From positions 1 to 42,259 of the forward strand of contig CAMBRG010000016.1 in assembly GCA_945869845.1 (NCBI GenBank): a DNA stretch of 42,259 nucleotides, read 5' to 3'. The notes beneath the pieces were generated by a model. That model had not been told where the DNA came from. It ran no database searches and was given only the letters and a program-made list of their open reading frames with translations. The DNA is from Opitutus sp. GAS368 (GTDB lineage: Bacteria > Verrucomicrobiota > Verrucomicrobiia > Opitutales > Opitutaceae). Positions 937 to 24,975 of the stretch are shown here, piece by piece. How positions within the stretch are numbered: the stretch's first letter is position 1; the number at the start of each line of letters is the position of its first letter. Position numbers and translations under genes: made by a program.

Positions 937-1799
937 GCGAGCGATTGAAAAGTCAGGGTGTGATCGGCGAGCAGTTCGGCCCCGGGCGCGAGCACGAGAT
1001 CGGACTCGGCCTGCAACGGGAAGGCCGCCAACGGATAATTACGCCGCACAAACCACGTCAACGGACCCGCGTTGTTCTCGAAACGAATGCGCACGCGGCG
1101 CAAGCTGCCGTCGAGCTGGCCGTGCCATTCCATCCAGCGGGCCGAGGCCCCATGCACCGCCGTCACGCCTTCCAGCCCGCCCTCGGCGACCAGTTTGATC
1201 GTGGGATCAAGGTGATCGTCCAGCAGCTCGCGCGCCCCGCGAAACTGCAGCCCGTTATAGTGCGAGCCGACCATCCCGCCATGGGAGTGCGGGTTGCCGA
1301 GCGTGAGGGCGCGGCCGCTGACGTTGACCAAGTGACTGCGCCAACGCAGCGACCACGTCGCCGCGGCGGGATCGGCCGCGACGGCGATCTGCAACGCGCG
1401 CTCCTCGCGAAAAAGCGTTTCGCCGAGCCGTTTCCACTCCAGCGAATGACTGAGCGCCGCGGTCGCCCCGGTCGCCTCAAGCGCGGTCCAGGCGACGTGC
1501 TGCTGCGAGCCGTGATCGTCGCGCCATTTGTAACCCTCGTCGCGCCGGCAGGTCGGGCCGCCCCAAAAATTCGCACCCGAGACTTGGTTCAACGTGAAAC
1601 TCAGCGCGTGGTGCCACGGATGGTCGTTGGGCCGGAAATTGGTGAGGGTGTCGCCCGCCAACGTATTGACCGGATGCGCGTAGGGCCGCGGCGATTCGTT
1701 GGCCGGAGTCGTCGGCGCGTAAACGTAGCGGAGCAAAAGGGCCTCGCCCGCGAAAACGGTGACGGCGGAACCGGGGACATGTTCAAGGCGGAGCGTCAT
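933..1799 (-). CDS. DUF6807 (PmoA-like) family protein
   Basis: 288-residue protein matching the family once labelled 'methane oxygenase PmoA' and now DUF6807. The marks are RPYAHPVNTLAGDTLT (residues 38-53), then NDHPWHHALSF, then a central NPHSHGGMVGSHYNGLQF stretch and a C-terminal WFVRRNYPLAAFPLQ. Members are beta-sandwich proteins found beside sugar-degrading enzymes. The old methane-oxygenase name is misleading and nothing here suggests methane oxidation. The His-rich HPWHH motif could bind a metal or a sugar (inference). The gene overlaps the genes on both sides by 4 bases (ATGA at 1796-1799 and 933-936), so it is the middle cistron of a tightly coupled three-gene operon led by the GH78 rhamnosidase. 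No signal peptide is seen, so it is probably cytoplasmic. Confidence 0.85.
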   Translation of the reverse strand: MTLRLEHVPGSAVTVFAGEALLLRYVYAPTTPANESPRPYAHPVNTLAGDTLTNFRPNDHPWHHALSFTLNQVSGANFWGGPTCRRDEGYKWRDDHGSQQHVAWTALEATGATAALSHSLEWKRLGETLFREERALQIAVAADPAAATWSLRWRSHLVNVSGRALTLGNPHSHGGMVGSHYNGLQFRGARELLDDHLDPTIKLVAEGGLEGVTAVHGASARWMEWHGQLDGSLRRVRIRFENNAGPLTWFVRRNYPLAAFPLQAESDLVLAPGAELLADHTLTFQSLA

Positions 1800-4288: not shown

Positions 4289-4445
4289 TGGGTCAGTGGG
4301 TTGATCAAGAGCCGCCTCGGGCTCGGGTTGGCCTCTACCCCCGGAGAGGCGATAGATCCACGAGAGCAGTCGCAGCGGCGCTAGACCGAAATGAGAATCT
4401 TCTCGTCAATTTTCAGATTTCAATCAGTATTTTCTGTGAAATTTC
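4289..4445. promoter_or_regulatory. Divergent intergenic region with palindromic operator candidates
   Basis: This 157-bp region separates the GH78 operon (minus) from the isomerase gene (plus) and must hold both promoters. The isomerase-proximal part is AT-rich, unlike its surroundings. A perfect 10-bp palindrome TGAAATTTCA lies at 4437-4446, ending on the first base of the isomerase ATG. A TTCAGA hexamer lies at 4412-4417 and a TCTGTGAA at 4433-4440; TTCAGA and its complement TCTGAA form the arms of the palindrome in front of the LacI gene (5405-5419). A TTGACG on the minus strand (4409-4404) is a possible -35 for the operon, without a convincing -10. A role as LacI-type operator is inference. 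Confidence 0.45.
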
Positions 4446-5315
4446 ATGAATAAGTCTTCTGTTTCCCCGCCCCCTCCGCGTCTCGTTCAATGCGCCTCTC
4501 CGTGGTCGATGCACGATTGGCCCTTAAAGCGCAAGGAATGGGCCTTGGACCGAAAACTAGATGCGATCAAAGAGGCAGGCTTTGACGGGGTTTGCGCTTA
4601 CGTCTCCCCCGAACTCAAGGCCGGGGCCGAGCGCCGCGGGCTCGTGCTCATGAGCGGCTTTGATTGCAGCGATCTTGACGTTGCGCGGCCCCGACTCGAG
4701 GCCCAACGAGACCTCGGCGTTCACTTCATTAACATCCAGTTGCTCAACCATGATACGCCGCCCGCGAAAGCCGCGGCGATGGCCGTGAAGTTGATCAAGC
4801 TCTCCCGATCACTCGGCCTGGGCGTGCACATCGAAGTTCACCGCGATACCTCCACCGAAACGCCGGAGAAATTCACCGAGATCGCCCGGCTATACCGTCG
4901 GGCCACGCGCCAGATTATGCCCGTCACGTGGGATCACTCCCACTTCGCGGTCTCGAAACATGTCATGCCCAAGGACTACTCGGCGCGCCTGCTGGCTTGG
5001 CCGGAGTCGATTCAGCACTCCCAGATGTTCCACCTCCGGCCTTTTAACAGCCAACATTGTCAGGTCCCCGTGACCAACGGCCGGGGAAAGTTCACCCCGG
5101 AATTTGAGGACTACCTCAGGTTTGTCGAAGACCTCTTCGCCCTTTGGCTACGCGGCCCACGGCCCGGCAACACCCTTTGGACCTGCCCCGAATTGGGCTG
5201 CACCCACGGCTACCACGTGAGCACCAATCCGCACCCGTGGCCCGACGCCGTCGCGGCCCGCGGCGCTTTCACCAAAGCTTGGAGCCGCGCGCTGAAACGC
5301 ACGCCTTCTATATAA
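4446..5315 (+). CDS. Sugar phosphate isomerase/epimerase (xylose isomerase-like TIM barrel)
   Basis: 289 residues of the AP-endonuclease-2 / xylose-isomerase-like TIM barrel superfamily. Metal ligand candidates fall where this superfamily places them: Glu130 in HIEVHRD, Asp163/His164 in TWDHSH, His196 in QMFHLRPFN and a late Glu in CPELG. The early strand DAIKEAGFDGVCAYVS and the segment AERRGLVLMSGF also fit. Such enzymes interconvert keto-sugars or cleave sugar acids; the substrate is not readable, though the setting next to a rhamnosidase suggests a deoxy-sugar step. No Shine-Dalgarno is seen before the ATG, which sits on the end of a palindrome. It is transcribed divergently from the GH78 operon and toward the LacI gene 113 bp downstream. 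Confidence 0.85.
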   Translation: MNKSSVSPPPPRLVQCASPWSMHDWPLKRKEWALDRKLDAIKEAGFDGVCAYVSPELKAGAERRGLVLMSGFDCSDLDVARPRLEAQRDLGVHFINIQLLNHDTPPAKAAAMAVKLIKLSRSLGLGVHIEVHRDTSTETPEKFTEIARLYRRATRQIMPVTWDHSHFAVSKHVMPKDYSARLLAWPESIQHSQMFHLRPFNSQHCQVPVTNGRGKFTPEFEDYLRFVEDLFALWLRGPRPGNTLWTCPELGCTHGYHVSTNPHPWPDAVAARGAFTKAWSRALKRTPSI

Positions 5316-5404
5316 GGCCTCCGTCCCGGCTTTTGCGTCTTTGTGCGCCGTCACCGCTTCGTGACAAAACCCTTGACCCGCACTTGGCAATTCAGTCCAA
5401 TCAT

Positions 5405-5419
5405 TCTGAAATATTCAGA
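5405..5419. promoter_or_regulatory. Palindromic operator candidate upstream of lacI-type gene
   Basis: The 15-bp sequence TCTGAAATATTCAGA has 6-bp perfect arms around ATA and ends 9 bp before the regulator's ATG. A TTGGCA at 5384-5389 and TGAAAT at 5407-5412 (17-bp spacing) could be the -35/-10, so a bound repressor would cover the -10. LacI-family repressors commonly autoregulate through such sites. The role is inferred from position and symmetry. Confidence 0.5.
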
Positions 5420-5428
5420 TAATCTCGC

Positions 5429-6478
5429 ATGCCCCCTCTGCTCATTGCCGACATTGCACGGAAGGCGAAAGTGTCACCCGCCACTGTCTCCCGCGTCATC
5501 AATCAACCGCACCTCGTCGCGGCCGATCGGTTGGAACGCGTCCGCTCCGTCATGTCCGCCGCCGATTACGAGCCGACGCCGCTTCATCGCCGCCGCGGGC
5601 CTAAGTCCCGCCTAGCGACCCCGAAGAACATCGCGGTCTGGTTCGTGGGCGCGAAGAAAAACTCCAGTTTCAATTGGTTCCAAGACCAACTGCTCCAGAC
5701 CCAGCACTCCAACGACCGTCAACGGCTAGAGATCAGCGTGCTCTTCACCGATACACCGGACGATTTGCCCCGCGCGCTCGCTGAGCGCCAAGTCGACGGC
5801 GTGATCATCCAAGGGATGGAGCCGACCGCCGCCTGCATGGCCAAGCTCGGCGACCTCCCGCACGTCTGGTTCATGACCCGCCGCTCGTTGTCATTCCCCG
5901 GAGATTACGTCGAGCCGGACAACGACGCCAACGGTCGCATGGCCGCCAACTATCTTCACCAACACGCCCATAAATCCGTCGCCGTGATCGCAGCAGATCC
6001 CGGCTACAGCGCTGTCAGCCAACGGGTTACTGCATTCGTCGACCAAGCGAAGACTCTCGGCCTCACGGTGCATAGCATTTTGGGAAAATCCAAACCCGTG
6101 AATTTCCTCGAGATCGTGCCCGTGCACGACGAAAGCGACGCGCTGGCCAAGCGATTCTGTCAACTTTCACCGCGCCCGACGGGGGTTTACGTGCCCGTCG
6201 ATCACTTTTGCGGGTCGCTCTTCCGTTCGATGCGCCTCGCCGGCCTGAAATCTGACCGGGATTTTGAGGCGATTTTGGGCAACCTAAATCCCGTCATTTA
6301 CCACAATCTGGACCACCTGCCCCCGGCGCTCGACATCAATCTTACCACCTTGGTGCGTAAAGTTGTCGATCACTTGGTCTGGCGCATCGACAATCCAAAG
6401 ACCTTGGGCCGCATCGGAGTTTGCGTCGCCCCCACCCTCGTCCTCCCGGCCAGCCAGGCCAACCAGATGATTGCCTGA
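5429..6478 (+). CDS. LacI/GalR-family transcriptional regulator
   Basis: 349 residues. The N-terminal helix-turn-helix is classic: LLIADIARKAKVSPATVSRV (residues 4-23) followed by INQPHLV and a hinge region ending near residue 60. The rest is the periplasmic-binding-protein-like effector domain, with PKNIAVWFVG opening it, QVDGVIIQGM mid-way and KSVAVIAADPGYSAVSQR in the second lobe. It lies between the sugar isomerase gene and the TonB receptor, so it probably senses a sugar or sugar phosphate from this locus and controls the divergent GH78 operon, the isomerase and perhaps the receptor (inference from position). The palindrome at 5405-5419 suggests autoregulation. The C-terminal lobe is less standard than E. 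coli LacI and ligand residues cannot be assigned. Confidence 0.93.
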   Translation: MPPLLIADIARKAKVSPATVSRVINQPHLVAADRLERVRSVMSAADYEPTPLHRRRGPKSRLATPKNIAVWFVGAKKNSSFNWFQDQLLQTQHSNDRQRLEISVLFTDTPDDLPRALAERQVDGVIIQGMEPTAACMAKLGDLPHVWFMTRRSLSFPGDYVEPDNDANGRMAANYLHQHAHKSVAVIAADPGYSAVSQRVTAFVDQAKTLGLTVHSILGKSKPVNFLEIVPVHDESDALAKRFCQLSPRPTGVYVPVDHFCGSLFRSMRLAGLKSDRDFEAILGNLNPVIYHNLDHLPPALDINLTTLVRKVVDHLVWRIDNPKTLGRIGVCVAPTLVLPASQANQMIA

Positions 6479-6499
6479 ATCGATCATCCCCAATTTTTG

Positions 6500-6537
6500 C
6501 CGGTAGTCGGCGCGATTCAAACCGCGCCAACTACCGG
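6500..6537 (+). promoter_or_regulatory. Strong hairpin between regulator and TonB receptor genes
   Basis: CCGGTAGT (6500-6507) pairs with ACTACCGG (6530-6537), and GGCGCG (6509-6514) with CGCGCC (6523-6528), leaving one C/A mismatch and an 8-base loop. A T-run precedes and an A-run follows, extending the pairing slightly. There is no T-tail on either strand, so it is not a standard terminator. It sits 26 nt before the receptor ATG. It may stabilise the receptor mRNA, act as an attenuator, or be an operator. The structure is seen; the role is open. Confidence 0.55.
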
Positions 6538-6563
6538 AAAATAACCAACCCCCACATATAACG

Positions 6564-9500
6564 ATGAAACCAGATACCAGCACCGGATCGCCCAGGACCA
6601 AGAAATACTTGGTTTCCTGTTTAGCCGCGTTGATGGCCGTGTCCGCCCCTATGGGCTACGCCGCCGACAGCGACGCCTTGAAGAAACTGCAGGAAGAAAA
6701 CTCTGCCCTGCGCAAACGCCTTGCCGCCCTCGAGGGCGTGCCAGCAGCTCCCGCCGCCGCGCCATCGGCCGGCCCGGTCGCCCCAGCCGCCCGGACCCCG
6801 CTGAAAGCGGATGAAGGCGTGCAGACGCTCAGCGCGTTCGAGGTCAAGACCGACAAGGACTACGGCTACCTCAAGACCAATGCCGCGACCGCCACAAAGA
6901 TCGGCATGGAGATCCAAAAGATCCCATTGAACGTATCTGTGATCTCGCGCGAGTTCCTTAACGATACCAACGCCCAGTCCCTCACCGACTTGTTCCGCTA
7001 CACGGCGGCCGCGTCCGGTGATACCCGCTTTGCGATGCGTATTCCGGCCAACTCCGCGACCCCGCAAGGCACCTTCACGATGCGCGGTTTCGTGGTGAAC
7101 AGCCTCATGCGTAACGGCATCTTCCGCTACACCTCCTACAACCTCGACACCGTCGAGCGCGTTGAGGTCATCAAGGGACCGGCCGCCGTCTTCTTCGGCC
7201 AAGGTTACCCCGGCGGCGTCATCAACTACATCAGCAAGCTGCCGCAGTTCAATCGTACGCAGGGCTCCATCACGATGACACTCAATGACAACTCGGGTCA
7301 GAAAGTCGTGCTCGATCAAAACGTGGCCGCCAGCGACAAGCTCGCCCTGCGCGTGCTCGGCGTGTGGGAAGACACCCAAGGCGAACGTCGCTTTGAATTC
7401 CGCCGCAACTACAGCGTAAATCCCTCGATCTCCCTCGTCCCATTCGAGAGCGGCAAGGTCAAGATCACCGCTGAAGGTGAATTCACCCGCGAGCGCTTCA
7501 TGCTGAATGATTACGACTGGATCTGGAGCGATTTCGCCGGCTGGAACGAGGCCGCCCGCACCGGACGTTACAACTCTTCAACCGCGACCCTGTCCAACAC
7601 GATCGTGGCCAATGCAGGCAATCTTCTGGCGGCCAACGTCGTTCAGAACACCACGACCCCAATGCTCGCCTACGGCACCTACATCAACAACAAGCGTATC
7701 GCGACCAGCAATTGGAGCCTGCCGGCCTACACCAGCGTCGAGCGCGGTGCCTACATCACCGACAAGAACGGCAAACGTTATCATGACGAGGCGTTCAATT
7801 ACACCAGCCGCGGTGCTGTCTTCAACAACGCGATCGAGAACTTCTCGGTGACCGCCGACCTCAGCCCATTCAGCTGGCTCGATGTTCGCTACAACTTCTT
7901 CCAAGAGAAGTCTGAGAATTACACCGTCGGTCAAGGCGGCGCGCTCACCACGCCCTACGCCAACGGCACCAACTGGAATGTCGGCACCGGTAATCTTTCC
8001 GGCTATTATCGCTACGGTCAGACGCACAACGTCGACGCCGTCGTGAAATTCGATTTCTTGGGCGTGAAGAACAAGTTCCTGCTGGGCGTCCAAAAGATCA
8101 GCCCCTACCAACAGTTCCTCGGCGGACAAACGTTCACCGACGCGCAATGGGCCTTCCTCCCGGGCGCGCGCAACCCGACGGCCAACCCGGATTATGCCGG
8201 CACGAATAGCACGATCTACAACGCAGGTGCTGTTCCGGTTAACCAAGTCATCCGTCAACGCGACGGATCGATCAAACCCGTTCGCCAGATCTTCTCCAAC
8301 TTCGATCCTGGCGCGGAAATCTATCCCGACATCACCGCATATCACCAAGAGGACCGCAACGCCCTCGACGGTTACAAGTCCCAGCAGATGTCGGCCTACC
8401 TCAACTACCAAGCCACGATGTTTAAGGATCGGCTGACGTTGCTCGCCGGCTATCGCGAGGAAAAGCAATGGGCCCGCGGTCAATTCCAATCGAACAATTA
8501 TCCGTGGTTTGTTTACTTCCCGGACATGCACCTCCGCCCCGACCTCTATCCTGAGAACGTATGGGGTCATTCCATCAGCTACCAACGCGGCATTCCGCAG
8601 GACCAGAAGGGCGACTCGTGGATGGGCGGTCTGTCCTTCGCGCTCACTCCTGAGCTGAGCATCTACGCTTCGAACTCCAAGACCTTCAAGTTCAACTCCG
8701 GCCGCGTCGGCGGTCTGTTCGTGGGCGATGAAGTGCTTTGGTATGACCAAGCCCGCGCCTTCGGATCCGGCGGCACTCCCGGTGCCTCCTTCCGCTACCT
8801 CGGCCAAACGGTCACCTCGCTCGCTCAGTTCCAACAAATCCTCTCTGGACGCGGCGTCTACAACCTCGTCAAAAACGAGCAGGGCATGAACTGGGAATTC
8901 GGCGCCAAATACTCGCGGCAAGATGGCCGTATCGTCGGCACCGTCTCGTTCTTCCGTGGCGAACGCGAAAACCAGATGCTCGACGACGGCGCCAAACAGT
9001 CGAATATCGAAGAGCCGCTCAACTACAGCACGGAACTCTTTCCGGTGGGCTCGCCTTACCGCAACACCCGTCTGCTGCGTTGGCGCACGACCGATCTCAT
9101 GAATCAGGTCGAGGGCACCGAAGCCGAAGTCATCTGGACTCCGGTGCGCAACTACCAGGCCGTCATCAACGGCTCCTGGCTGTGGTCCGCCAAGACGGTG
9201 TATGACAAGACCCGCGCCGCACCCGGCACGGCGGCTTACAACGCCGGCACCCCGGCCGCCAAGGTTGCATCCGACATCTACTACAACGCCCGTCTCGAGA
9301 ACGTCCCCGAGTTCCGCTTCAACATCTTCAACAAATACACGTTTGTTGATGGCGTCGTGAACGGCATGGCCCGCGGTCTCAACGTCGGTCTCGGTATGCG
9401 CTACTCTTCCGAGACGGTGGTTTCCCGTTCGGTGGACTGGAATCCGTTCAACGGCGGCTATCAAGCCGGTGACTACCTGGTGTTCGATGCGACGATCGGC

Positions 9501-15030: not shown

Positions 15031-16395
15031 CTAGCGACGGGGCAGGGCTGGGTTGCCGAGTTTGGCTTTGATCTCCGGCGAGAGATTCGCCGTCGCCAAC
15101 CACGCGCGGGCGGCGGCGGGCGCGTTGTCCAGCCAGCGCGAATACGCCGCCATCACGGCGGCCTCGCGGGCGGCCGGCGCCACGAGCGTCTGCGCCCAAG
15201 CGATCGTCCCCACGGGATCGCGCTGGGCGAGTTGGGGCGCGACCGACGCGGCGGCGGCAGGTTGGCTCGACGCCGGCAGCTCGCTCACAAAATTCCGCAC
15301 GGCAGGCGCGTCGACCAGCAACCAGTAGGACAACGCGCCGCCGAGTGCGGTGGTCGTCGTCGGCCCCGGCGGTTGCGCGCCCGCCCAGCGCGATGCGGCC
15401 GGCGCGTCGGCCTGCGCCCAAGTCGAAGCGATCCTGATCAACGCTACATCGCGCGCACTCGCGGCGCCGAGCGAGTTCGCCCACGCCAACGCGTTCACGG
15501 GATCGATCGCGAGCAGCGCCGCGAGGTGCGCGGCGGCCGCGTCTTGCGCCGCACCGGCCGGAAGCCCGGCGACATACTGGGCGGCAGCGGCCGGCGCCGT
15601 GACCGCCCAGCTCGTAAGCGCATTGTTCAGAGCCAAGGTTTGAGCCGGCCCGACCGGGAGTTGCCCGACGAAGGCGAGAGCCGCGGCGGGATCTTTCACC
15701 GCGAGACCACGCGCCACGTCGAGGGCCGCGCGCGTCTGGGTTTCCCCGGGGGGCAGGAGCCGCACCAGCCCAGCGGCGGCCACCGGATCGGCGGCGGTGA
15801 TAAGTTGCAGCGCGTGAAAAAGCGTTCGCTCCAGCGCGGGACCCGGGAGCGACTGCGGCGCGAGCTCGATCACCTGCAATGGATCGCGCCGGGCGAGTTC
15901 GAACAATGCGCTTTCCATGGCCGGCGCCCGATCATCGGCGGAGAGATTCTGCGCCCACGCCAGCGCGGACGGAGCATCGGCCCGCAGCCAGACGGAGGCG
16001 AGCGCGCGCAGGGCGTTCTCTCTGCCGGGACCCGGCGGGACCGCCGCCAGCCGCGCCACCGCGAGGGTCGGATTCTCCCGCGCAAAGGTGTCAAAAAACA
16101 GACCGTAAATCGCCGCCTGTTCACGCGTGCCCACCCGATCGCGGGCCTGCGCCAGCGCGGCCTCGGGATCGCGCCGATGCAACGCATCGAGCATTACAAA
16201 CAGCGACGCATCGCGGTCCGGTCCGGGCGGGCGCTCACGCCACTCCTCCGCCGCAGGCACGGCCGCTCCGGCGACCGGCTGCACCGCCGCGGGTTCGTTC
16301 TCGCGCGGCGCTGCCTGCGGTCGCCGCAGCCACACCCCGAGACCGACGATCAGGGCGATGCCCAGAAACCCGGCGAGAACCCAGCGTGATTTCAC
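15031..16395 (-). CDS. Exported alpha-solenoid protein with 'DPxAALAWA' repeats
   Basis: 454 residues. An N-terminal membrane anchor (WVLAGFLGIALIVGLGVWL, about 5-23) is followed by a linker and then about ten degenerate repeats of 35-40 residues. Each has a core like [A/R]DPxAAxxWAxxLPxGxxR: RDPEAALAQA, ADAPSALAWAQNL, ADPVAAAGLVRLLPPG, KDPAAALAFVGQLPVG, IDPVNALAWANSL and RDPVGTIAWAQTL. The repeats predict paired helices and a superhelix for protein contact. Similar proteins are common in Verrucomicrobia (recollection) with no known role. The start ATG overlaps the stop of the nuclease gene (ATGA at 16392-16395), so the two are translated together and may act together outside the cytoplasm. 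Confidence 0.8.
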   Translation of the reverse strand: MKSRWVLAGFLGIALIVGLGVWLRRPQAAPRENEPAAVQPVAGAAVPAAEEWRERPPGPDRDASLFVMLDALHRRDPEAALAQARDRVGTREQAAIYGLFFDTFARENPTLAVARLAAVPPGPGRENALRALASVWLRADAPSALAWAQNLSADDRAPAMESALFELARRDPLQVIELAPQSLPGPALERTLFHALQLITAADPVAAAGLVRLLPPGETQTRAALDVARGLAVKDPAAALAFVGQLPVGPAQTLALNNALTSWAVTAPAAAAQYVAGLPAGAAQDAAAAHLAALLAIDPVNALAWANSLGAASARDVALIRIASTWAQADAPAASRWAGAQPPGPTTTTALGGALSYWLLVDAPAVRNFVSELPASSQPAAAASVAPQLAQRDPVGTIAWAQTLVAPAAREAAVMAAYSRWLDNAPAAARAWLATANLSPEIKAKLGNPALPRR

Positions 16396-19385
16396 GGCAA
16401 TTCGTAAACCTCAACCAGCGCGAGACCCGTGGTATCGCCTATACCCGAAACCTGCGCGGTGTAGGCACCGGGTGCGAGCGTCACGATCATCGCGGTGTCC
16501 GCGCTGCCGGGAGCAAAGGCAAACGCACCCGCCAGCGCGGCCGCCGCGGCCAACGCCGCCGCATCGGGCGACGTGCTCCAGCCCGTGTTTTGCAACACCG
16601 GCGTGAGCCTGGAAAACAGCGTGAGCTGCGGCCGCGCGAGCAGACCACCGAGGTTGAACTGCGCGAGCGCGGGACCGGCGCCGCGGATCAACACGCGCTT
16701 GGGCGCGGGACCGGCAATCGTCAGGCCCAAGATCAGCGCGTCCGCTCCCGGACCGGCAATCGCCCGGGTCGCGAGGCTCGGCAAATTCGCGCCGGGGGCT
16801 GGCGCCGCCAGATCGTAAACTTCCAAAAGCCCGACGCCGGCCGCGCCGGTGCCCGCGCTCATGAGCACCGTGTAACCGCCGGGGGCGAGCGTCGTGAGGA
16901 TGGCGGAATCCGCACTCCCGGCCGCAAACGCGAACGCTCCGGAACGGGCCGCGGCCGACGAAATCGCCGCTGCGTTGATCGCCGTACTCCACCCGGCATT
17001 GGTCCCGATTTCCGTGGAGCCACTATAAAGTTCGAGCCTGGGTGCGGCGAGCGCACCGTTCACGCCGAGCGCGCCCAACGTGGGACCGGCGGCGCGGATC
17101 AACACCGGCTTCGCGGCCGTGCCGGCGATCGAGAAACCGGCGATGGCGGTCTGGTCGCCGTTGGCCGTGCGCGTGCGCGAAGCGAGGCTGGCGAGGCGCG
17201 AGTCGGCCGAGTTCGGCACGGTGAGACCGACCCCCGTCGTGAGCGTGACCGCGAGATCATCGATGCGCCAATTGGCGGTGCTCGTCCCGGCGTTGCCCGC
17301 GCCGCCAAAGCCGTAGAGACGGAACGTCACCGGTGTGGCCACGGAGCTCACGACCGGAAACAGCGTGGGCGTGATCAGCGTCCATGCGCTGTTGTTGGCG
17401 AGCGGACCGGCGGCGACGAGCACCGGTGCCGCCGTGCCGTTGATCGCGAATACCGCGTAAGCCTGCGGGCCGGTGCCCGTGCTGCGGGCCCCGAAACTCA
17501 GCCCACTCACCGCGAGCTGACGGCCGGCGACGGGGGTCAGGATAAACTCAAAGAACGCCGAGCCGCCCTCGGCGAGATTGAGCGGGCCGACGCGCGCGGC
17601 CGCGCCGGCATTGGAGGTGCCGGTCGCGCCCGCATAGCCGCTCGAAACGGAAACCGTGGTGAGCGTGAGCGTGGTGCCGTTGTTGTTGCGTTGCACGACC
17701 GTGCCGCCGGTGACATCGGCCGGCAGCCCGCGGACAGGCTCCGCCGCCGAGAAATCCCACGCCACCACCGGCGGCGCGGCGACCGCAACGGTGAGCGCAA
17801 ACGGCGCGCTGGTGACGGCGCCGAGGGCGTTGGTGATAACCACATCGTAGCTGCCGGTGTCGGCCGTCGTCGCGGGCGGAAGAGCCAGCGTGGCCGTGGT
17901 CGCGCTCGCATTGCCGGTGATCGCGACGCCGCCCCGGCGCCATTGGTAAACGAAGGGCGCCGTGCCACTCGCGACGACGGTGAGCGTAGCCGTGGCGCCG
18001 GGCGCAACGGTCTGCGCGACGGGCGCGACCGCGATGGTGGGCGCCGCCGGCGTGACCGACAGCAGGGCGGCGGCGCTCGTGACCGAGCCCACGGAATTCG
18101 TGATCACGACATCGTAGAGCGCAGCATCGGCGGCCTGGGCGTTGGGAAGAACCAGTGAGGCGGTGGCTGCGCTCGGGTTGCCGGTGATCGCGAGCCCGGC
18201 CCGGCGCCATTGGTAAACGAGCGTCGGCGAACCGCTCGCGACGACGGCCAAGGTGGCGGTCGCGCCGGCCGCGACCGTGCGCGCAGGCGGGGCGGTCACG
18301 ACGACCGGCGGCAAGCCCGTGAGCACGAGCGGCGCGGCCGCGCTCGCGACGGAGCCGACCGGGTTGCGCACGACGACCGTGTAGGTGCCGAGGGCCGCCG
18401 CCGTGAGGTTGGAGAGGGTCAGGGTGGCGGCGGTGGCGCCCGGAATTTCGATTTCCTCGCGCGCCCATTGATACGTGAAGGTCGGATCGCCCGCGGCGAC
18501 GACGGCGAACGTAACGCTGCCGCCCACGGCTGCGGTCTGCACGACCGGCTGCGTCGTGATCGTGGGCGAACCAGCTGCCGGTGCCCCATCGGCCCTCGCC
18601 CGGAGCGCGGTGGCGACGTTCACCGGCAGTTCACTGAAAAACGTATAGCCGGTGTCGGCCTGGATCTGCGCCGCCGTGGTGATGTAGTTTTGCCACGGGT
18701 TACTGCGGACGCCGGCGATATTGGGAATCTTGATGGCGATCACGCGCGTGGTGGTGGTGATGCGGCTGAGGGCGGTGCCGGCACCGGCGGGAACGACCAC
18801 CGCAATCTTCCAGGTGAATCCGGCGACCGCGACGCCGCTGGCGATGGTGGCGCCGGAGAAACCGCTCGGTCCGGAAATGATGAGCACCTCGTTGCCGGCG
18901 GCGACGAGCGTGCGGCATTCGCTTTCAAAATTCGCCCACACGCCCTGATTGTTGTCGGGGGCCTGCGGAATCATGTTGGTCATGAAAAACGTGGCCTCGT
19001 TGTCGGCGACCGTGACGGTGCGATCGCCCGAGGGACACATGTGGCCGCGATCAAAGCCCGAGCCCGAGTAGTCGGTCGTGAGCACCTGGTAAAATCCGGC
19101 GGGCAGCGTGGTGTCTTGGAAAAAATTATCGGAGCGGCCGGACGATCCGACGTCGGCGGTGGTAAGGTTCCAACTGACCCAGTTGGGCTCGCGCGTGGTG
19201 TGGTTGTAAGAGAGCGAATACTGGGGCCGCGCGATGAGGTAGTTGGTGGTCGCGGTCGCGACGGTGGTGGCGCCGCTGGGATTGCCGAGCTGACTCTGGA
19301 GCGCGGCGCCGATCGTCGCGTGGGCGATCCCGGCGAACTGAAGCACAGCCAAGGCGAGCAGGAAAAAACGACGCGGAAAGTTCAT
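16392..19385 (-). CDS. Secreted DNA/RNA non-specific endonuclease with Ig-like domains and C-terminal repeats
   Basis: 997 residues from the ATG at 19385, chosen because MNFPRRFFLLALAVLQFAG starts a clean signal peptide cut after AHA; the 46 codons upstream look unrelated. The NUC domain (about 25-265) has the metal-finger nuclease motif DRGHMCPSGDR with catalytic His115, then FFMTNMIPQAPDNNQGVWANFE, which holds the metal Asn. Three Ig-like domains follow (each ending like YxVVITNxxGxVTS), then a jelly-roll-like domain, then two repeats of about 105 residues (KPVLIRAAGPTL ... GGYTVLMSAG and KRVLIRGAGPAL ... GAYTAQVSG). Those tail repeats are typical of Verrucomicrobia surface proteins (recollection). 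It probably degrades extracellular DNA or RNA. A 4-base overlap couples it to the helical-repeat gene downstream. Confidence 0.9.
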   Translation of the reverse strand: MNFPRRFFLLALAVLQFAGIAHATIGAALQSQLGNPSGATTVATATTNYLIARPQYSLSYNHTTREPNWVSWNLTTADVGSSGRSDNFFQDTTLPAGFYQVLTTDYSGSGFDRGHMCPSGDRTVTVADNEATFFMTNMIPQAPDNNQGVWANFESECRTLVAAGNEVLIISGPSGFSGATIASGVAVAGFTWKIAVVVPAGAGTALSRITTTTRVIAIKIPNIAGVRSNPWQNYITTAAQIQADTGYTFFSELPVNVATALRARADGAPAAGSPTITTQPVVQTAAVGGSVTFAVVAAGDPTFTYQWAREEIEIPGATAATLTLSNLTAAALGTYTVVVRNPVGSVASAAAPLVLTGLPPVVVTAPPARTVAAGATATLAVVASGSPTLVYQWRRAGLAITGNPSAATASLVLPNAQAADAALYDVVITNSVGSVTSAAALLSVTPAAPTIAVAPVAQTVAPGATATLTVVASGTAPFVYQWRRGGVAITGNASATTATLALPPATTADTGSYDVVITNALGAVTSAPFALTVAVAAPPVVAWDFSAAEPVRGLPADVTGGTVVQRNNNGTTLTLTTVSVSSGYAGATGTSNAGAAARVGPLNLAEGGSAFFEFILTPVAGRQLAVSGLSFGARSTGTGPQAYAVFAINGTAAPVLVAAGPLANNSAWTLITPTLFPVVSSVATPVTFRLYGFGGAGNAGTSTANWRIDDLAVTLTTGVGLTVPNSADSRLASLASRTRTANGDQTAIAGFSIAGTAAKPVLIRAAGPTLGALGVNGALAAPRLELYSGSTEIGTNAGWSTAINAAAISSAAARSGAFAFAAGSADSAILTTLAPGGYTVLMSAGTGAAGVGLLEVYDLAAPAPGANLPSLATRAIAGPGADALILGLTIAGPAPKRVLIRGAGPALAQFNLGGLLARPQLTLFSRLTPVLQNTGWSTSPDAAALAAAAALAGAFAFAPGSADTAMIVTLAPGAYTAQVSGIGDTTGLALVEVYELP

Positions 19386-19488
19386 CGATAAAGCGTGGCG
19401 CAGGCGGCGCGGGAAAAGCAACTGCGGCGGCGGGCGCGGAAGTTTGGTGGTCGGAGCGGGTGTCCGAAAAATCCGATGTAGGTCCGTC

Positions 19489-19543
19489 GTGGCATAGGCG
19501 TCTCGCCCATGTTTCGAAATCACGGGCGGGACGCCCGTGCCAC
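19489..19543. repeat. REP-like inverted repeat GGCACGGGCGTCCCGCCCGTG type
   Basis: The arms 19489-19511 and 19521-19543 are inverse complements at 19 of 23 positions, and all four differences are transitions. It lies between the nuclease gene and the LuxR gene in a 183-bp gap. It may also act as a terminator-like hairpin for the LuxR transcript, though there is no T-tail. Confidence 0.65.
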
Positions 19544-19568: not shown

Positions 19569-20756
19569 TCAGCCCAACCGTGCGACGAGTTTCGCGCGGC
19601 TGTTGACGGCGAGTTTCACGAAGATCGACTGCAGCTGGTTTTTGATCGTGCCCACGCCTTTGTGCAGACGACCCGCAATCTCTTCGTTGCTCAGGCCTTC
19701 CCGCACCCGTAGCGCCACCTCGCGTTCGCGCGGGGTGAGCTGGGCCAACACCGTCAACTGTCGCTCCTGCGCCTCGGCGCTGGGGGCGCCCAACGCTGGG
19801 TGGTTGATCAACTGGGCGAACAGATACGGACGCGTGAGCAACGGGTCGTTCATCGCCACGAGATTGAGATCGGCGCGCAAGCCGGGTTGCTCCGGGTGCG
19901 CGAGCTTCCGCCTCAGCCCGCCCTGCGCTCCGCCCGGGGTGAGCGCCTGCGCGTCGTGCTCCGCGAGCAGTTCTTCGTAGGTCTCCAGAAAAATCGGCGG
20001 GATCGCAAAGACCGCGCGACTGTTCAGGCGGCGCGCAACGACCGGACCGAGGTTCCACCTCGCGCAGGTCTCGAAGGCCTCGGGGTTGGCAAAAACGAGT
20101 TCGCGCTTCGCGTTCACCAAAAGGACGCCTTGGGGCAAGAGATTGATAAACTGCTGGAGCGTGCTGCGGCAGACGCGCTCTTCTTCCTGCCGCTCAATTC
20201 GACGGAGATTGCGGTCGAAAATCGGGTGGAGATCGAGCAGCAGGTTCATCTCATCGCGGGTGAACTCGGCGTGGGCGAACGCCCGGCGCAGCACCAGAAT
20301 ACTTTTGCGCTCACCGCGTTCCCAAGTCGTCAGGCCGACGAGTTTGTCAAAACCTTCGGGGCGGGGCACATGGCGGTAAAAATCCGTGCGACGCCGGGCG
20401 CGCGGGTCGGCCGGCAGCATCTGCTCCAAGTTGTAGAGTTTGATCCCGGGATGATCGTTGAGGTAGGCGTGGGTGGGCGTGAGCTGGGCGCGGGCCCGCC
20501 ACCAGGCGACGGGCCGCAGCGAAGGCTGCGAGTGGAGCGTGAGTGCACCGGGAATTTTTTCCTGCGCATCGAGAAAGAGCGTCGCCGAGTGATGCTCGGG
20601 CAACGCCGTGCCGATGAAGCCGCGCAACGCCGTCCAAAATTCCGTGACGTTGGCGGCGGTCTCGAGACCGATCACCGAGCGTTGCAACGCCGGATCATCG
20701 ATCCGCAGGGCGCGGTCGCGAACCTCGATGGCGGCGGCTTTCTGGGTGACAGGCAA
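19569..20756 (-). CDS. LuxR-type (GerE HTH) transcriptional regulator
   Basis: 395 residues if started at TTG 20756. The C-terminal GerE helix-turn-helix is clear: LTPREREVALRVREGLSNEEIAGRLHKGVGTIKNQLQSIFVKL. The N-terminal 300 residues look like a sensor region without a receiver Asp, with a predicted helix DEMNLLLDLHPIFDRNLRRIERQEEE that may dimerise, then a PAS-like stretch (INLLPQGVLLVNAKRELVFAN). GTG codons at 20786 and 20795 are alternative starts. The frame stays open far upstream only because it runs through the 67-bp repeat array, so that part should not be called coding. The target is unknown. Confidence 0.85.
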   Translation of the reverse strand: MPVTQKAAAIEVRDRALRIDDPALQRSVIGLETAANVTEFWTALRGFIGTALPEHHSATLFLDAQEKIPGALTLHSQPSLRPVAWWRARAQLTPTHAYLNDHPGIKLYNLEQMLPADPRARRRTDFYRHVPRPEGFDKLVGLTTWERGERKSILVLRRAFAHAEFTRDEMNLLLDLHPIFDRNLRRIERQEEERVCRSTLQQFINLLPQGVLLVNAKRELVFANPEAFETCARWNLGPVVARRLNSRAVFAIPPIFLETYEELLAEHDAQALTPGGAQGGLRRKLAHPEQPGLRADLNLVAMNDPLLTRPYLFAQLINHPALGAPSAEAQERQLTVLAQLTPREREVALRVREGLSNEEIAGRLHKGVGTIKNQLQSIFVKLAVNSRAKLVARLG

Positions 20757-20863
20757 TGCACCCGGGAGCCAAACCCGTTTCCCCACCGGGCGCACGGAGA
20801 AAAACGACGGGCCGGAGCGACGCTCGGCGGGCCCGGTGCCGTCGCCACCCGGGCCGCGGCGCC

Positions 20864-21083
20864 TGTGGGAGCGAGCTCGCTCGCGACTTCGGCGTTCACC
20901 CGGGGTTTCGAGGCGCATATCGCGAGCAAGCTCGCTCCCACATTCGGACTCGCGACTTCGGCGTTTACTTGGGGCCGCGGCGCATATCGCGAGCAAGCTC
21001 GCTCCCACATTCGGGCTCGCGACTCCGGCGTTCACTTGGGGCCGCGGCGCATATCGCGAGCAAGCTCGCTCCCACATTCGGAC
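20864..21083. repeat. Three 67-bp tandem palindromic units plus one inverted copy
   Basis: CGCGAGCAAGCTCGCTCCCA starts at 20921, 20988 and 21055, an exact 67-bp period. Each unit also has a CTCGCGACTTCGGCGTTYAC-like segment (starts at 20880, 20949 and 21016). At the LuxR-proximal end the core appears in reverse orientation (TGTGGGAGCGAGCTCGCTCG, about 20864-20883). The core is itself a near-palindrome, so each unit can form a hairpin. The array fills most of the gap between the LuxR gene and the upstream five-domain gene. Unit 1 differs slightly in length (69 bp) and sequence. Confidence 0.85.
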
Positions 21084-21123
21084 CACGGTCGGACCGCGCT
21101 CGGTGGCCGAGGTCTGGCCCGGC

Positions 21124-24100
21124 TTAGCGCGAATCGCGCTTCTTCTGGTCTTCGACCGCTTTGGCCAAGATCGCGGCGTCCACCTTGATGCCCGCTTTGG
21201 CGAGGGCGGCGTCGAGCAGGACTTCGCCTGCCATATAACCGATGGTGATCGCGGCGATTTTGCCTTCACGGTCGATGATGAATTGGGTCGGAATACCGGA
21301 GACGCCGTAGAGCTTGCGGGAGGCGCGTTCGGGGGTGCGCTCGGCCGCATCATGGGAGAAGATAAAGTCGGGATATTTCTCCGCGTTGGCTTTCACCCAC
21401 TTCTCGAAATTCGCCCGGCTGTCGCTCGTACAGGAGCCGAGCACCACCACGCCTTGGTCCTTGTAAGTGGCGGCGACCTGTTGGGTGTGCGGCATCGAGG
21501 CGATGCACGGACCGCACCATGGGGCCCAGAAATCGAGGACCACGACCTTGCCCTTGAAATCGGAGATTTTGACCGGTTTGCCGGCGAGATCGGTGGTCGT
21601 GAAGTCCGGGGCAACCGCACCGACCTTCAGCATTTCGACCTTGGCCTCGGGCGGCGCGGCCTTCGTCTCGGCGGCGGTGAACACTTTCTTTGGCATATCC
21701 TCGGGGGCGAGTTTCACGCCGGCGCGGAGCAGGAGATTGCCGAGCGACTCGGCCGACTGGGTGCCGGAGCCGACGAAGAAGCCGAGAAAATTTCCCTTTG
21801 CATCGACGACATAGTTGTTGGGCACGGGTGCCATCACGCCGCCGGTGAACGCCATCGGAATCACCTTGGCGTAGTAGGCGCTCGAGGCGGCCTTGAGCGC
21901 GGCTTTCTCCTCGTCGCTCATTTGGTCGGACGCCTTGGCCGGCCGATCGAGAGCTCCGGCGGGATCAAACCACACCGGGAACGAAATCTTCGGCCCATTG
22001 ATGGCATACCATTTGTCAAAATCCTCGCGCTTGCCGTAGGCGCCGACGCCGACGAAGACCACGCCTTGCGCAGCGTATTTCTTGGCCCAAGCGTCGTTGA
22101 ACGCCTGCGCGGCCTCGGGCAGACCCATGCCGGCGGACCAAAAACTGAGGACGACGGTTTTGCCTTTGGTGAACTCCGAGAACTTGACCGGCGTGCCGTC
22201 GCTCCGCTGCGCGGTGAAATCGGGCACGGGCTCGCCGGCCTTGAGCTTGCCGTAAACCTCGCGGAACTGCGGCGCGGGATTTTTATCGGCCTCCTTCGTG
22301 GCGGCAGCGCGGGCGAGTTCGTCGGCGGCGGCTTTGGCGAGTTGCTTCTCACCTTCGGCAGCGATGGCGGGATCCACTTTGACCCCGAGCTTGTTCAGTG
22401 CGCCCTCGGAGCGGACATCGCCTTTGCTGTAACCGACGATGGTCGCGGCGATCTTGCCGTCACGGCCGATCACAAACTGCGTGGGGATGCCCACGACCCG
22501 GTAAAGTTTCGACGACGCGCGGTCGTCAAAAGTCGCGGAGCCGCGCTCGTTCGGGTCCCACGTGAAAACCATATCGGGATACTTCGACTGATTCGCGGGG
22601 ATCCATTCCTTGAATTTCGCGATCGTGTCGCTCGTGCCGGAAGCGAGCACAACGACGTCTTGGTCTTTATATTTCGCCGCGACCCCTTGCGTATGCGGAA
22701 ACGATTCGAGGCAAGGCCCACACCAAGTGGCCCAGAAGTCGAGGATGACAATCTTGCCCTTGTAATCGGAGAGGCGGACTTCTTTGCCCGCGACGTTGTT
22801 CATCACGAAATCGGGTGCGACCGCGCCGGCGGCGAGGGTCGGTAGCCGGGCCGCGGCGGGCATCATGCCGCCTCCGGCGGGAGCGCCGGGCATCGGCTGG
22901 AGGGTAGCAGCGGGGATCGCGGCCCGGGCGGAATCGGCGGCGAGCAGCGCGTCGAGCACGAGGGCGGCGTCGTCGGCGGTGAGTTTCACTTCCTTCGACT
23001 TCGCGAGCATCGCCTTGGCCAAGGTCACAGCGCGTGCCCCCATGCCGATGCTGCCGCTGACGAGCTTGCCGGTGGAATCGATCACCACCGAAATAGGAAA
23101 CATGCCGACGCCGAACGCCGTGTTGGTCACGCCCTCGGCCCAAGCCTTGCCGGCGGGGTCCCAGGCAACGGCGAAACCGGGCTCGGGATTCTTGGCGCGC
23201 CAAGCGTCGAAGGCTTCGCGCTCGGTGGCGGCGAAGATGTTGAGTACCGCCAGTCCCTGCGCGCGATAAGCGGCAGCGGTCTCGGCGAGCCACGGCTGCG
23301 GGCCGTTGCTGGTGCTGAAATGGAGCAACAGCGCCTTGCCGCGGAAACTGGAAAGCTTGAGCGACTTACCGTCGGCGCCAGTGACGGTGAAGTCGGTGAC
23401 CATTTGACCGGCGACCACACTGCCGAACTTTGCCGGCACGAAGCTCGGAGCGGGAGCACCTGCCGACGGGGCGGGCGCGCCCATGCCGATCATGGGCACC
23501 GTCGCACCGGGCGCTTTGGCGGCGGGCATCGCGGGAGTTTTGCCGACCATCGGGACGGACTTGGGCTCGGCGGGATTCGGTTTCGGCTCGGGCGGCATCG
23601 AGGCGAGATCGACCTTCACCCCGGCGCGGGCGAGGGCGTAATCGATGCGGAAGTCATCACCGGGCCCGCCGCCCGACTTGGTCTCGAGCAGCTTTCCGTC
23701 GCGGCCGATGATGAACATCGTGGGAAACCCGGTCACACCGTAGCCGAGATTGAAGACCGAGTTTTTCCAACCGTCTTTACCCGCCGGATCGAAGGTCATG
23801 GCAAACGCGTAACGCGCGGCGTTGCGCGTGATCCAACCATCGTAGTTCTCCCGTGTATCGCTCGACGTGACGCCGAGCAACACGACGCCTTGATCGGCGT
23901 ATTTGCGTGCGATGCGGTCGAGATTGGGCATGGCGGCCTGACACGGGCCGCACCACGTGGCCGAGACATCGAGGAGGACGATTTTGCCGCGGAAATCGGC
24001 GAGGCGCACGGTTTCGCCCTTGGCGTTGAGCACAGAAAATTCCGGTGCCATCGCACCGGGCACCGGGCCCTTGACGCCGGACGTGGACGCTCCGGCGACC

Positions 24101-24180
24101 ACCGGCACAGTTTCCTGCGCAGGCAAGGCGGTGACGACAAACGCAGTGGCAAGGAGGCTAAGGAGGCGGGCGAATTTCAT
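21124..24180 (-). CDS. Exported protein with five TlpA/thioredoxin domains, alternating active and cysteine-less
   Basis: 1018 residues with a signal peptide (about 1-21, cut after LPAQ). Five TlpA/ResA-like folds follow, with Pro/Ala-rich linkers at about 195-250 and 420-445. Domain 1 (40-192) has CGPC at 77-80. Domain 2 (255-400) has NGPQ at 292-295 in the same place. Domain 3 (450-605) has CGPC at 487-490. Domain 4 (650-828) has MGLP at 685-688. Domain 5 (852-1004) has CGPC at 889-892. The cis-proline loop is kept in all five (Pro153, Pro362, Pro566, Pro787, Pro964). Domains 3 and 5 are near duplicates (GKVVVLDFWAPWCGPC against GKIVILDFWATWCGPC). TlpA proteins reduce disulfides in the periplasm. 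The dead domains may bind substrate or space the active ones (inference). A VOC gene lies upstream on the same strand. Confidence 0.93.
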   Translation of the reverse strand: MKFARLLSLLATAFVVTALPAQETVPVVAGASTSGVKGPVPGAMAPEFSVLNAKGETVRLADFRGKIVLLDVSATWCGPCQAAMPNLDRIARKYADQGVVLLGVTSSDTRENYDGWITRNAARYAFAMTFDPAGKDGWKNSVFNLGYGVTGFPTMFIIGRDGKLLETKSGGGPGDDFRIDYALARAGVKVDLASMPPEPKPNPAEPKSVPMVGKTPAMPAAKAPGATVPMIGMGAPAPSAGAPAPSFVPAKFGSVVAGQMVTDFTVTGADGKSLKLSSFRGKALLLHFSTSNGPQPWLAETAAAYRAQGLAVLNIFAATEREAFDAWRAKNPEPGFAVAWDPAGKAWAEGVTNTAFGVGMFPISVVIDSTGKLVSGSIGMGARAVTLAKAMLAKSKEVKLTADDAALVLDALLAADSARAAIPAATLQPMPGAPAGGGMMPAAARLPTLAAGAVAPDFVMNNVAGKEVRLSDYKGKIVILDFWATWCGPCLESFPHTQGVAAKYKDQDVVVLASGTSDTIAKFKEWIPANQSKYPDMVFTWDPNERGSATFDDRASSKLYRVVGIPTQFVIGRDGKIAATIVGYSKGDVRSEGALNKLGVKVDPAIAAEGEKQLAKAAADELARAAATKEADKNPAPQFREVYGKLKAGEPVPDFTAQRSDGTPVKFSEFTKGKTVVLSFWSAGMGLPEAAQAFNDAWAKKYAAQGVVFVGVGAYGKREDFDKWYAINGPKISFPVWFDPAGALDRPAKASDQMSDEEKAALKAASSAYYAKVIPMAFTGGVMAPVPNNYVVDAKGNFLGFFVGSGTQSAESLGNLLLRAGVKLAPEDMPKKVFTAAETKAAPPEAKVEMLKVGAVAPDFTTTDLAGKPVKISDFKGKVVVLDFWAPWCGPCIASMPHTQQVAATYKDQGVVVLGSCTSDSRANFEKWVKANAEKYPDFIFSHDAAERTPERASRKLYGVSGIPTQFIIDREGKIAAITIGYMAGEVLLDAALAKAGIKVDAAILAKAVEDQKKRDSR

Positions 24181-24298
24181 AAAAATTGGATGAGATCAGA
24201 CAGAGGTTGACGGGAGAGAAGCGAACTGAAGGAAAACGCTAACATCGGGTTTCGGCGGTGACCATAGGCTTAAAGTAATAAGCCGGATCAGCCGACGA

Positions 24299-24730
24299 TC
24301 AAGATCCCGCGCGACTCCCGGCAGGCGGCGGGCGGAGTTGGAGCAAATCCCATTTGTTGCCATAGAGATCACGAAAAACCGCCACCGTTCCGTAGTTTTC
24401 GTCGCGGGGTTCCTCGAGAAACTCGACTCCTCGCCGAAGAAACGCGGCGTGATCTCGGGAAAAATCATCGGTGTGCAAAAACAAAAAAACCCGGCCACCG
24501 GCCTGATTGCCGACTGCGGCGAGTTCGGCGTCGTTCTTCGCCCGGGCCAGCACGAGGCAGCCGCCACCCGCTGCGGCGTCCGGGCCCAGCGGCGCCACGA
24601 GGACCCAACGCTTGCCCGGGGCGAGCGGAGTATCCTCAACCAAGCGAAAGCCCAGCACGCTTGTGTAGAAAGCGATGGCCTCGTCGTAATCGCGGACGAG
24701 TAGGGAAATATAGCCGAGGCGCTGTTGCAT
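24299..24730 (-). CDS. VOC-family protein (glyoxalase/bleomycin-resistance fold)
   Basis: 143 residues. Two beta-alpha-beta-beta-beta modules are visible. The first is LGYISLLVRDYDEAIAFYTSVLGF with KRWVLVAP. The second is RVFLFLHTDDFSRDHAAFLRRGVEFLEEPRDENYGTVAVFRDLYGNKWDLLQL, whose last part carries the common FxDPxGNxWxL-like signature (here FRDLYGNKWDL). The family includes glyoxalase I, dioxygenases and resistance proteins, so the substrate is unknown. It is 118 bp upstream of the five-domain thioredoxin gene on the same strand. Confidence 0.9.
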   Translation of the reverse strand: MQQRLGYISLLVRDYDEAIAFYTSVLGFRLVEDTPLAPGKRWVLVAPLGPDAAAGGGCLVLARAKNDAELAAVGNQAGGRVFLFLHTDDFSRDHAAFLRRGVEFLEEPRDENYGTVAVFRDLYGNKWDLLQLRPPPAGSRAGS

Positions 24731-24857
24731 GAGGGAAATGTGAGATGAATGCGGTCAGGCCGGCGAGATTTTGCGCGATGGGCGAAGGCCGGGGCGTTAT
24801 CCCGGACACGCTAAGTTGATACCGACGGTCCTGAATTTCGGCACCGAAGCGGCAGGT

Positions 24858-24975
24858 TATACCAGCGCTGTTTGGTTTTTAGACTTTCCGTCGTAAGCAG
24901 CCTGCTTGCAGGCGCTCGGTGCGTCCGCAAGCGGACGGCCTACAATAGTCCAAATCTGATGTGACGTTGGTATTA
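24858..24975. repeat. MITE-like element with TTATACCA/TGGTATTA ends and an inner 51-bp palindrome
   Basis: The ends TTATACCA (24858-24865) and TGGTATTA (24968-24975) are inverted with one mismatch. Inside, 24893-24943 is an imperfect palindrome made of GTAAGCAGCCTGCTTGCAGG and its counterpart ending GGACGGCCTAC. It contains no ORF and directly abuts the next element. From 24731 to 24857 I see no gene. Confidence 0.6.

Follow-up and report, generated by a model that had tools for sequence, protein, structure and literature searches.

We analysed a 42,259-nucleotide stretch of the Opitutus sp. GAS368 genome (the window; contig CAMBRG010000016.1), which encodes on its minus strand a 1018-residue protein with five thioredoxin-like domains (open reading frame (ORF) 21127–24180, stop codon 21124–21126). 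Catalytic domains alternate in this protein with domains lacking the redox-active cysteines, here called dead domains. With a probability of about one half, it is a TlpA/ResA-type disulfide reductase with several domains that is secreted to the periplasm, is fed by DsbD and acts on imported cargo, its dead domains binding substrate. It draws its interest chiefly from the constant domain order and from the importers encoded beside its relatives.

Domain architecture and fold

Pfam AhpC-TSA and Redoxin were the top families, above their cut-offs and with five matching stretches each. The initial annotation had described five thioredoxin-like domains ordered active-dead-active-dead-active, and this was borne out on the minus strand. 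CGPC occurs at residues 77, 487 and 889, and NGPQ (292) and MGLP (685) take its place in the other two domains. CxxC, taken as the TlpA/ResA criterion, is thereby present in domains 1, 3 and 5 and absent from 2 and 4. Seven cysteines were counted in total, six in the CGPC sites (77, 80, 487, 490, 889 and 892) and one at residue 917. An N-terminal signal peptide (MKFARLLSLLATAFVVTALPA/QE) was judged likely by eye, on sequence only; gene starts at this and all other loci are ORF-based.

Domains 1, 3 and 5 matched TlpA/ResA-type structures in sequence and fold across the whole domain, with ResA, DsbE-like and TlpA proteins among their closest solved relatives. The structure comparison of the whole-chain model covered these three domains. 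A thioredoxin fold had also been assigned to both dead domains. Domain 4, modelled alone and compared with solved structures, upheld this with a TlpA/ResA-type match in sequence and fold; for domain 2 the assignment comes from a profile match and secondary structure only. The first helix of domain 2 is about four residues shorter, and NGPQ is equivalent to CxxC only up to this deletion.

Domain order among relatives

Family matches at E 1e-60 or better were found in 71/252 genomes of Opitutaceae. Wider draws gave 11/384 genomes from the class (1e-45) and 6/288 from the phylum (1e-40), all in the window's family; each count includes the own genome. In loci from other groups, the model applied recognised at most two such domains per ORF.

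For an architecture survey, 104 non-redundant ORFs with such domains were gathered. The active-dead-active-dead-active order is kept in 33 ORFs, each from a different genome and one of them the window's own. These 33 were selected by that order; the independent test was typing with the active-site columns removed. A domain tree built without those columns gave six types (1 to 5 plus an active type x), and the six corresponding profiles were applied to domains longer than about 100 residues. CxxC was found in 57/57 type 1, 75/76 type 3, 78/78 type 5 and 19/20 type x domains, versus 0/54 of type 2 and 0/69 of type 4 (83 training domains are included and 10 unsure domains not counted). All 84 fully typed multi-domain ORFs were ordered subsets of 1-2-3-x-3-4-5, a count that skips the 20 of 104 ORFs that are single-domain or incompletely typed. 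Other forms (A, active; d, dead) were AdAAAdA (3), AdAAdA (3), dAdA, AdA, dA, AA and single domains, and at L144–L147 an AdAA form lies beside an AdA form as two genes. Type 4 accompanied by type 5 alone (type 45) makes up a separate protein in 11 ORFs.

Typed dead domains of the relatives lack CxxC, and CGPC is therefore not placed at random; homologues with CGPC scattered over the dead positions were not encountered. Judged from these alignments, the alternation of catalytic and dead domains is not random, as the initial annotation had argued against random decay. Its observation that cis-proline loops remain in all five domains also held: the cis-proline is present in 33/33 five-domain ORFs at each of the five positions, and the loop around it is conserved in both dead types. 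Ratios of nonsynonymous to synonymous substitution rates (dN/dS) were 0.03–0.26 across all domains in five comparisons. As far as sequence comparison tells, the two non-catalytic domains are fixed, keep the cis-proline loop and are under purifying selection.

Single loci showed further variation. The sole type-3 domain without CxxC among the 76 carries WSAPC (L151, 4507–6384, plus strand), and the type-x domain with a lost motif is that of L155, whose ORF was interrupted by a stop in the genome search. L150, L169 and L170 hold long ORFs with A-d-...-A thioredoxin-like domains outside the six types. In L160 (G088; 4349–6877, minus strand) an AdAd form ends after domain 4 and a dA form lies about 7 kb away, with CysK-like, DsbD and M16 genes between them. 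A further, third cysteine follows the third strand ('GSCTSD') in 74/78 type-5, 20/20 type-x, 30/57 type-1 and 4/76 type-3 domains; it was not among the commonest letters at that position in types 2 and 4. The synonymous rate (dS) of domain 4 was 0.73 between L132 and L133 (0.20–0.29 in the other domains) and 0.04 between L001 and L007 (0.11–0.30 in the others), as if domain-sized recombination had occurred.

Gene neighbourhood and partner proteins

Gene neighbourhoods were compared at 62 loci. Multi-domain genes had been found at 65, but three of these (L159, L153 and L157) repeat L184, L037 and L035 and were left out. Neighbourhood seeds were taken from the same loci, flank lengths vary, and several genomes supply two loci (e.g. 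the window and L005). At 59 loci the sequence reaches 600 bases or more upstream of the gene. A TonB-dependent receptor lay in the same-strand upstream chain in 36 of them and directly upstream in 32. About 1.8/59 direct neighbours would be expected from the 99 TonB Plug matches in the 3.6 Mb of the own assembly (G000). The binomial figure for this adjacency (4e-33) overstates its strength because the genomes are related; assuming only ten lineages, five of them with the receptor, gave 5e-6.

In the 45 loci of at least 9 kb we counted FecR in 23, DsbD in 16, a CysK-like pyridoxal phosphate enzyme in 14, a LuxR regulator in 9, an M16 protease in 8 and tyrosine phenol-lyase in 3. DsbD was counted only in ORFs longer than 1300 bases, short antisense ORFs having given doubtful matches. 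At least one of an upstream receptor, DsbD and the CysK-like gene was held by 40 of the 45. Of the five-domain loci, 26 reach the same upstream minimum; 16 of these had a receptor in the chain, 15 had DsbD or the CysK-like gene, and 25 had one or other of the three. The link of the relatives to one receptor clade and to DsbD is far above background. An extracytoplasmic function (ECF) sigma factor, FecR and an STN-domain receptor precede the thioredoxin gene in many loci.

A single clade comprised 43 of the 50 receptors, and 38 of these lie upstream of a multi-domain thioredoxin gene when gaps of up to 1.8 kb are allowed. The STN signalling domain was found in 7/9 receptors scanned, and the N-terminus of one receptor matched FpvA and FemA. 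The receptor itself was considered as the reductase's substrate and rejected: upstream receptors are unlikely substrates because they are nearly free of cysteine (a median of 0 and at most 1 in 34 ORFs, fragments among them). In 4/4 genomes searched the CysK-like enzyme is accompanied by a second, distinct paralogue; it is 71–73% identical between genomes and the other copies are 37–43% identical to it. One M16 protease matched PqqL (6OFS) over its full length (E 1.7e-54) and also FusC, and has a signal peptide by eye.

In the own genome, contig C27 (L005) carries four consecutive same-strand genes, encoding a receptor, a dAdA form, an AA form and the CysK-like enzyme. DsbD, the sole DsbD_TM match of the assembly, lies on the same contig about 6.7 kb from the CysK-like gene. 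The window gene is flanked by a glyoxalase on its upstream side and by a LuxR regulator on its downstream side. A sister genome (G005) holds the five-domain gene at 97% identity.

Proposed role and alternatives

In the proposed mechanism, DsbD would supply cytosolic electrons to the three catalytic domains, whose WCGPC sites would reduce disulfide bonds in receptor-imported cargo. Candidate cargo comprises disulfide-containing peptides, proteins or small disulfides. The signalling receptor would turn on its own operon, the PqqL/FusC-like M16 protease may cut the products in some species, and the CysK-like enzyme may use the released cysteine or thiol. The window copy, with only the LuxR regulator beside it, would do the same job for the system elsewhere in the genome on contig C27. 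The dead domains probably bind substrate, because their cis-proline loop is kept and by analogy with protein disulfide isomerase (PDI): like PDI b domains, their cis-proline face may act as a non-catalytic binding module holding substrate near the catalytic sites. An internal disulfide relay between domains, as floated in the initial annotation, may or may not take part. The receptor link points to a coupling of import with disulfide reduction.

Tentatively, and at less than even odds, the loci may together constitute a 'reductase-associated import system'. Opitutaceae would then possess a TonB-dependent importer that is induced by its cargo and constantly paired, in the periplasm, with a modular PDI-like reductase of disulfides with six domain types in the order 1-2-3-x-3-4-5. 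Peptides or proteins with disulfide bonds would be dismantled as nutrients, and the dead domains would serve as substrate clamps.

Several observations weigh against a DsbD-fed reductase for imported cargo with substrate-binding dead domains. No partner is universal: the DsbD and M16 counts reach only 16/45 and 8/45. None of the seeded receptor, DsbD and CysK-like genes was found in the window's 42 kb, and the window is the one locus among the 26 five-domain loci without any of them. A search of G005 for the receptor clade at E 1e-120 gave no match, and the receptor near its five-domain gene (L176) falls outside the main clade. The receptor search covered 13 genomes and was positive in four, namely three owners of the family (G000, G007 and G001) and G031, which has a 38%-identical receptor yet no family match at E 1e-30. 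Receptor and thioredoxin family therefore usually, but not always, occur together. Conservation is lowest in domain 2 (mean pairwise identity 0.50) and domain 4 (0.47), against 0.64–0.75 in the other three, and the domain arrangement of the AlphaFold2 (AF2) whole-chain model, extended chain or compact body, is unreliable (predicted template modelling score, pTM, 0.34). Substrate binding by the dead domains draws on just the two arguments given above, analogy and the kept loop.

The low conservation of the dead domains would also suit passive spacers, which would set the distance between the three catalytic heads and bind nothing. Domain 4 moreover showed the highest dN/dS of the five domains in each of the five comparisons, and some forms, AA among them, lack a dead domain altogether. 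We nevertheless find this role somewhat doubtful. A spacer does not account for the invariant cis-proline, the conserved loop around it in both dead types or the purifying selection on these domains. The 11 type 45 proteins place type 4 beside a single catalytic domain, and there no spacing of several heads is therefore needed.

A PDI-like foldase would be a general periplasmic isomerase or chaperone for the cell's own secreted proteins, with the dead domains as chaperone modules and the importers incidental. Layouts in the PDI family similarly combine catalytic with non-catalytic domains (PMC7563561), and the window copy itself lies apart from importer genes. This role is nonetheless unlikely, given the association of the relatives with one receptor clade and DsbD. 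The own assembly also gave little sign of an oxidative folding pathway, since VKOR was not found and DsbA gave one weak match only (DsbB was not searched). Absences from this assembly are weak evidence because it is 83% complete.

Quite improbable is a maturation factor in the manner of CcmG, ResA or TlpA, supplying reducing power for apocytochromes c or the copper sites of oxidases. It would fit the closest solved relatives of the catalytic domains. That job does not need five domains, however, and the family is found in only some Opitutaceae genomes (the 71/252 given above); no cytochrome or oxidase gene was seen among 30 neighbour ORFs scanned, a small part of the neighbours. An antioxidant, peroxiredoxin-like role is very improbable: AhpC-TSA and Redoxin are the top Pfam families, but AhpC-TSA is a wider family than the peroxiredoxin models, the catalytic sites are CGPC dithiols, and all NCBIfam peroxiredoxin and thiol peroxidase models listed fell below their cut-offs.

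Origin of the repeat

Domain trees were built from 126 rows and from 100 rows, the latter including 12 outside TlpA-like rows. Types 3 and 5 clustered together with a few kindred rows (support 99 in the 126-row tree, 88/94 in the 100-row tree), which agrees with the initial view of domains 3 and 5 as close duplicates. Types 2, 4 and x separated from types 1, 3 and 5 plus outgroup with support 99/94 (100/92 without the outgroup). Dead type 4 grouped with active type x (100/96, and 99/98 in the tree without outgroup). Profile comparison scored 313 for 4-x, 219 for 2-4 and 191 for 2-x. The stretch before the cis-proline is 26 residues in 17/20 type-x domains, 43–46 in type 4 and 16–20 in most others.

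An active-dead pair had been put forward as the unit of expansion. The trees support an odd-even pair; its active-dead character failed, as the even class holds the active type x, and an active-dead pair was rejected as the original repeat unit. The expanded pair is more probably active-active, because type 4 groups with active x and because the profiles and the lengthened stretch agree. We propose that an active-active pair probably expanded and that cysteines were lost later in types 2 and 4. A point against this is that the approximately unbiased (AU) test did not reject a tree with both dead types together (p 0.29); nor did it reject monophyly of types 1, 3 and 5 (p 0.46). The earlier interpretation is on the whole partly supported, with its expansion model amended accordingly.

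One relative (L125 of G201, ORF 1381–4401) bears on the loss. Its domain 4 (residues 644–818) has an intact WCGPCQQ, the third cysteine and the type-4 insert. The typing script called it x; the alignment shows the type-4 insert (EEKAEYKAQSKKYFSEV beside EEKKEFGAKQRDHFAKV and similar), and in trees it branches at, or close to, the root of the x+4 group. This domain looks like an intermediate that took on the type-4 shape before cysteine loss. With the cysteines kept in an otherwise dead-type-4-like domain, the loss could be studied in a living intermediate.

Comparison with known systems

The best-known chains mixing catalytic and non-catalytic thioredoxin domains are those of the eukaryotic PDI family. 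PDI has active domains 1 and 4 and inactive domains 2 and 3, ERp72 has active domains 1, 2 and 5 and inactive 3 and 4, and ERdj5 has four active domains, as described in PMC7563561; PMC2757866 describes PDI-like proteins whose thioredoxin domains number one to four. As here, several thioredoxin-type domains of both kinds share one chain. Unlike that family, the present one has TlpA/ResA-type domains, strict alternation, a bacterial periplasmic setting and importer neighbours. The NCBIfam ER_PDI_fam model scored 69.7 bits against a cut-off of 344.25. The protein is thus, by sequence, no member of the PDI family, and is predicted to work like a PDI-type chain. Plant nucleoredoxin NRX1 has three thioredoxin-type domains, two with WCXPC sites (PMC12688404); it differs in being a plant protein of three domains with a C1-like domain (PMC12688404). 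The listed solved relatives of the ResA/TlpA/CcmG kind match one domain each, whereas here up to seven domains occur in fixed order, two of the domain types without cysteines. A bacterial family built on the same principle from two to seven TlpA/ResA domains per chain offers a natural series for studying the function of dead redox domains.

In the FusA/FusC and YddB/PqqL import systems, a TonB-dependent receptor gene lies beside the gene of a periplasmic cargo-processing enzyme; a like arrangement is seen at 36/59 loci of the present family but not at the window copy. M16 genes are carried by 8/45 loci, the one checked being PqqL/FusC-like, and there is none at the window copy. The constant partner here is, in contrast, a predicted disulfide reductase. 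For protease-associated import, some clusters that lack the protease are reported to hold redox enzymes of the cytochrome c peroxidase family (PMC6793856); a term search of the main text of that paper returned neither 'thioredoxin' nor 'disulfide'. The ECF sigma factor, FecR and STN receptor upstream of many loci recall FecI-FecR-FecA and FpvA signalling; the operon here, however, encodes a predicted reductase, and nothing points to iron as cargo. If import and reduction are indeed coupled, a redox step would be added to known TonB-dependent cargo handling. A literature search, with subscription journals thinly covered, recognised no paper on this thioredoxin family or its gene neighbourhood.

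Features of the window locus

Table 1. Coordinates of the five-domain gene, its domains and motifs, and the adjacent regulator in the window.
Feature	Position	Strand	Basis
Five-domain thioredoxin-like protein, 1018 aa	21124..24180	-	ORF, Pfam, Cys count
Likely signal peptide, residues 1-21 (ALPA/QE)	24118..24180	-	sequence by eye
Domain 1, type P1, catalytic, residues 41-190	23611..24060	-	domain typing
CGPC 77-80 (domain 1)	23941..23952	-	sequence
Domain 2, type P2, without CxxC, first helix shortened, residues 256-395	22996..23415	-	typing, profile, model
NGPQ 292-295 replacing CxxC (domain 2)	23296..23307	-	sequence
Domain 3, type P3, catalytic, residues 449-602	22375..22836	-	domain typing
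CGPC 487-490 (domain 3)	22711..22722	-	sequence
Domain 4, type P4, without CxxC, inserted helix ~residues 756-779; residues 646-824	21709..22245	-	typing, model
MGLP 685-688 replacing CxxC (domain 4)	22117..22128	-	sequence
Domain 5, type P5, catalytic, residues 851-1000	21181..21630	-	domain typing
CGPC 889-892 (domain 5)	21505..21516	-	sequence
Cys917, third Cys of domain 5 (GSCTSD)	21430..21432	-	Cys in 74/78 type-5 domains
LuxR-type (GerE) regulator, downstream, same strand; start uncertain	19569..20813	-	stretch conserved in L176 ends at 20813

A scan of 20700–24900 for sigma-70 promoters found none, with 0.8 expected in shuffles. A TonB Plug match unmatched by the receptor seeds lies at 6912–7220 (plus strand), about 14 kb from the gene. 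A DNA/RNA non-specific endonuclease with three Ig-like domains is encoded at 16392–19523 (minus strand), and its gene is kept downstream of the LuxR gene in G005.

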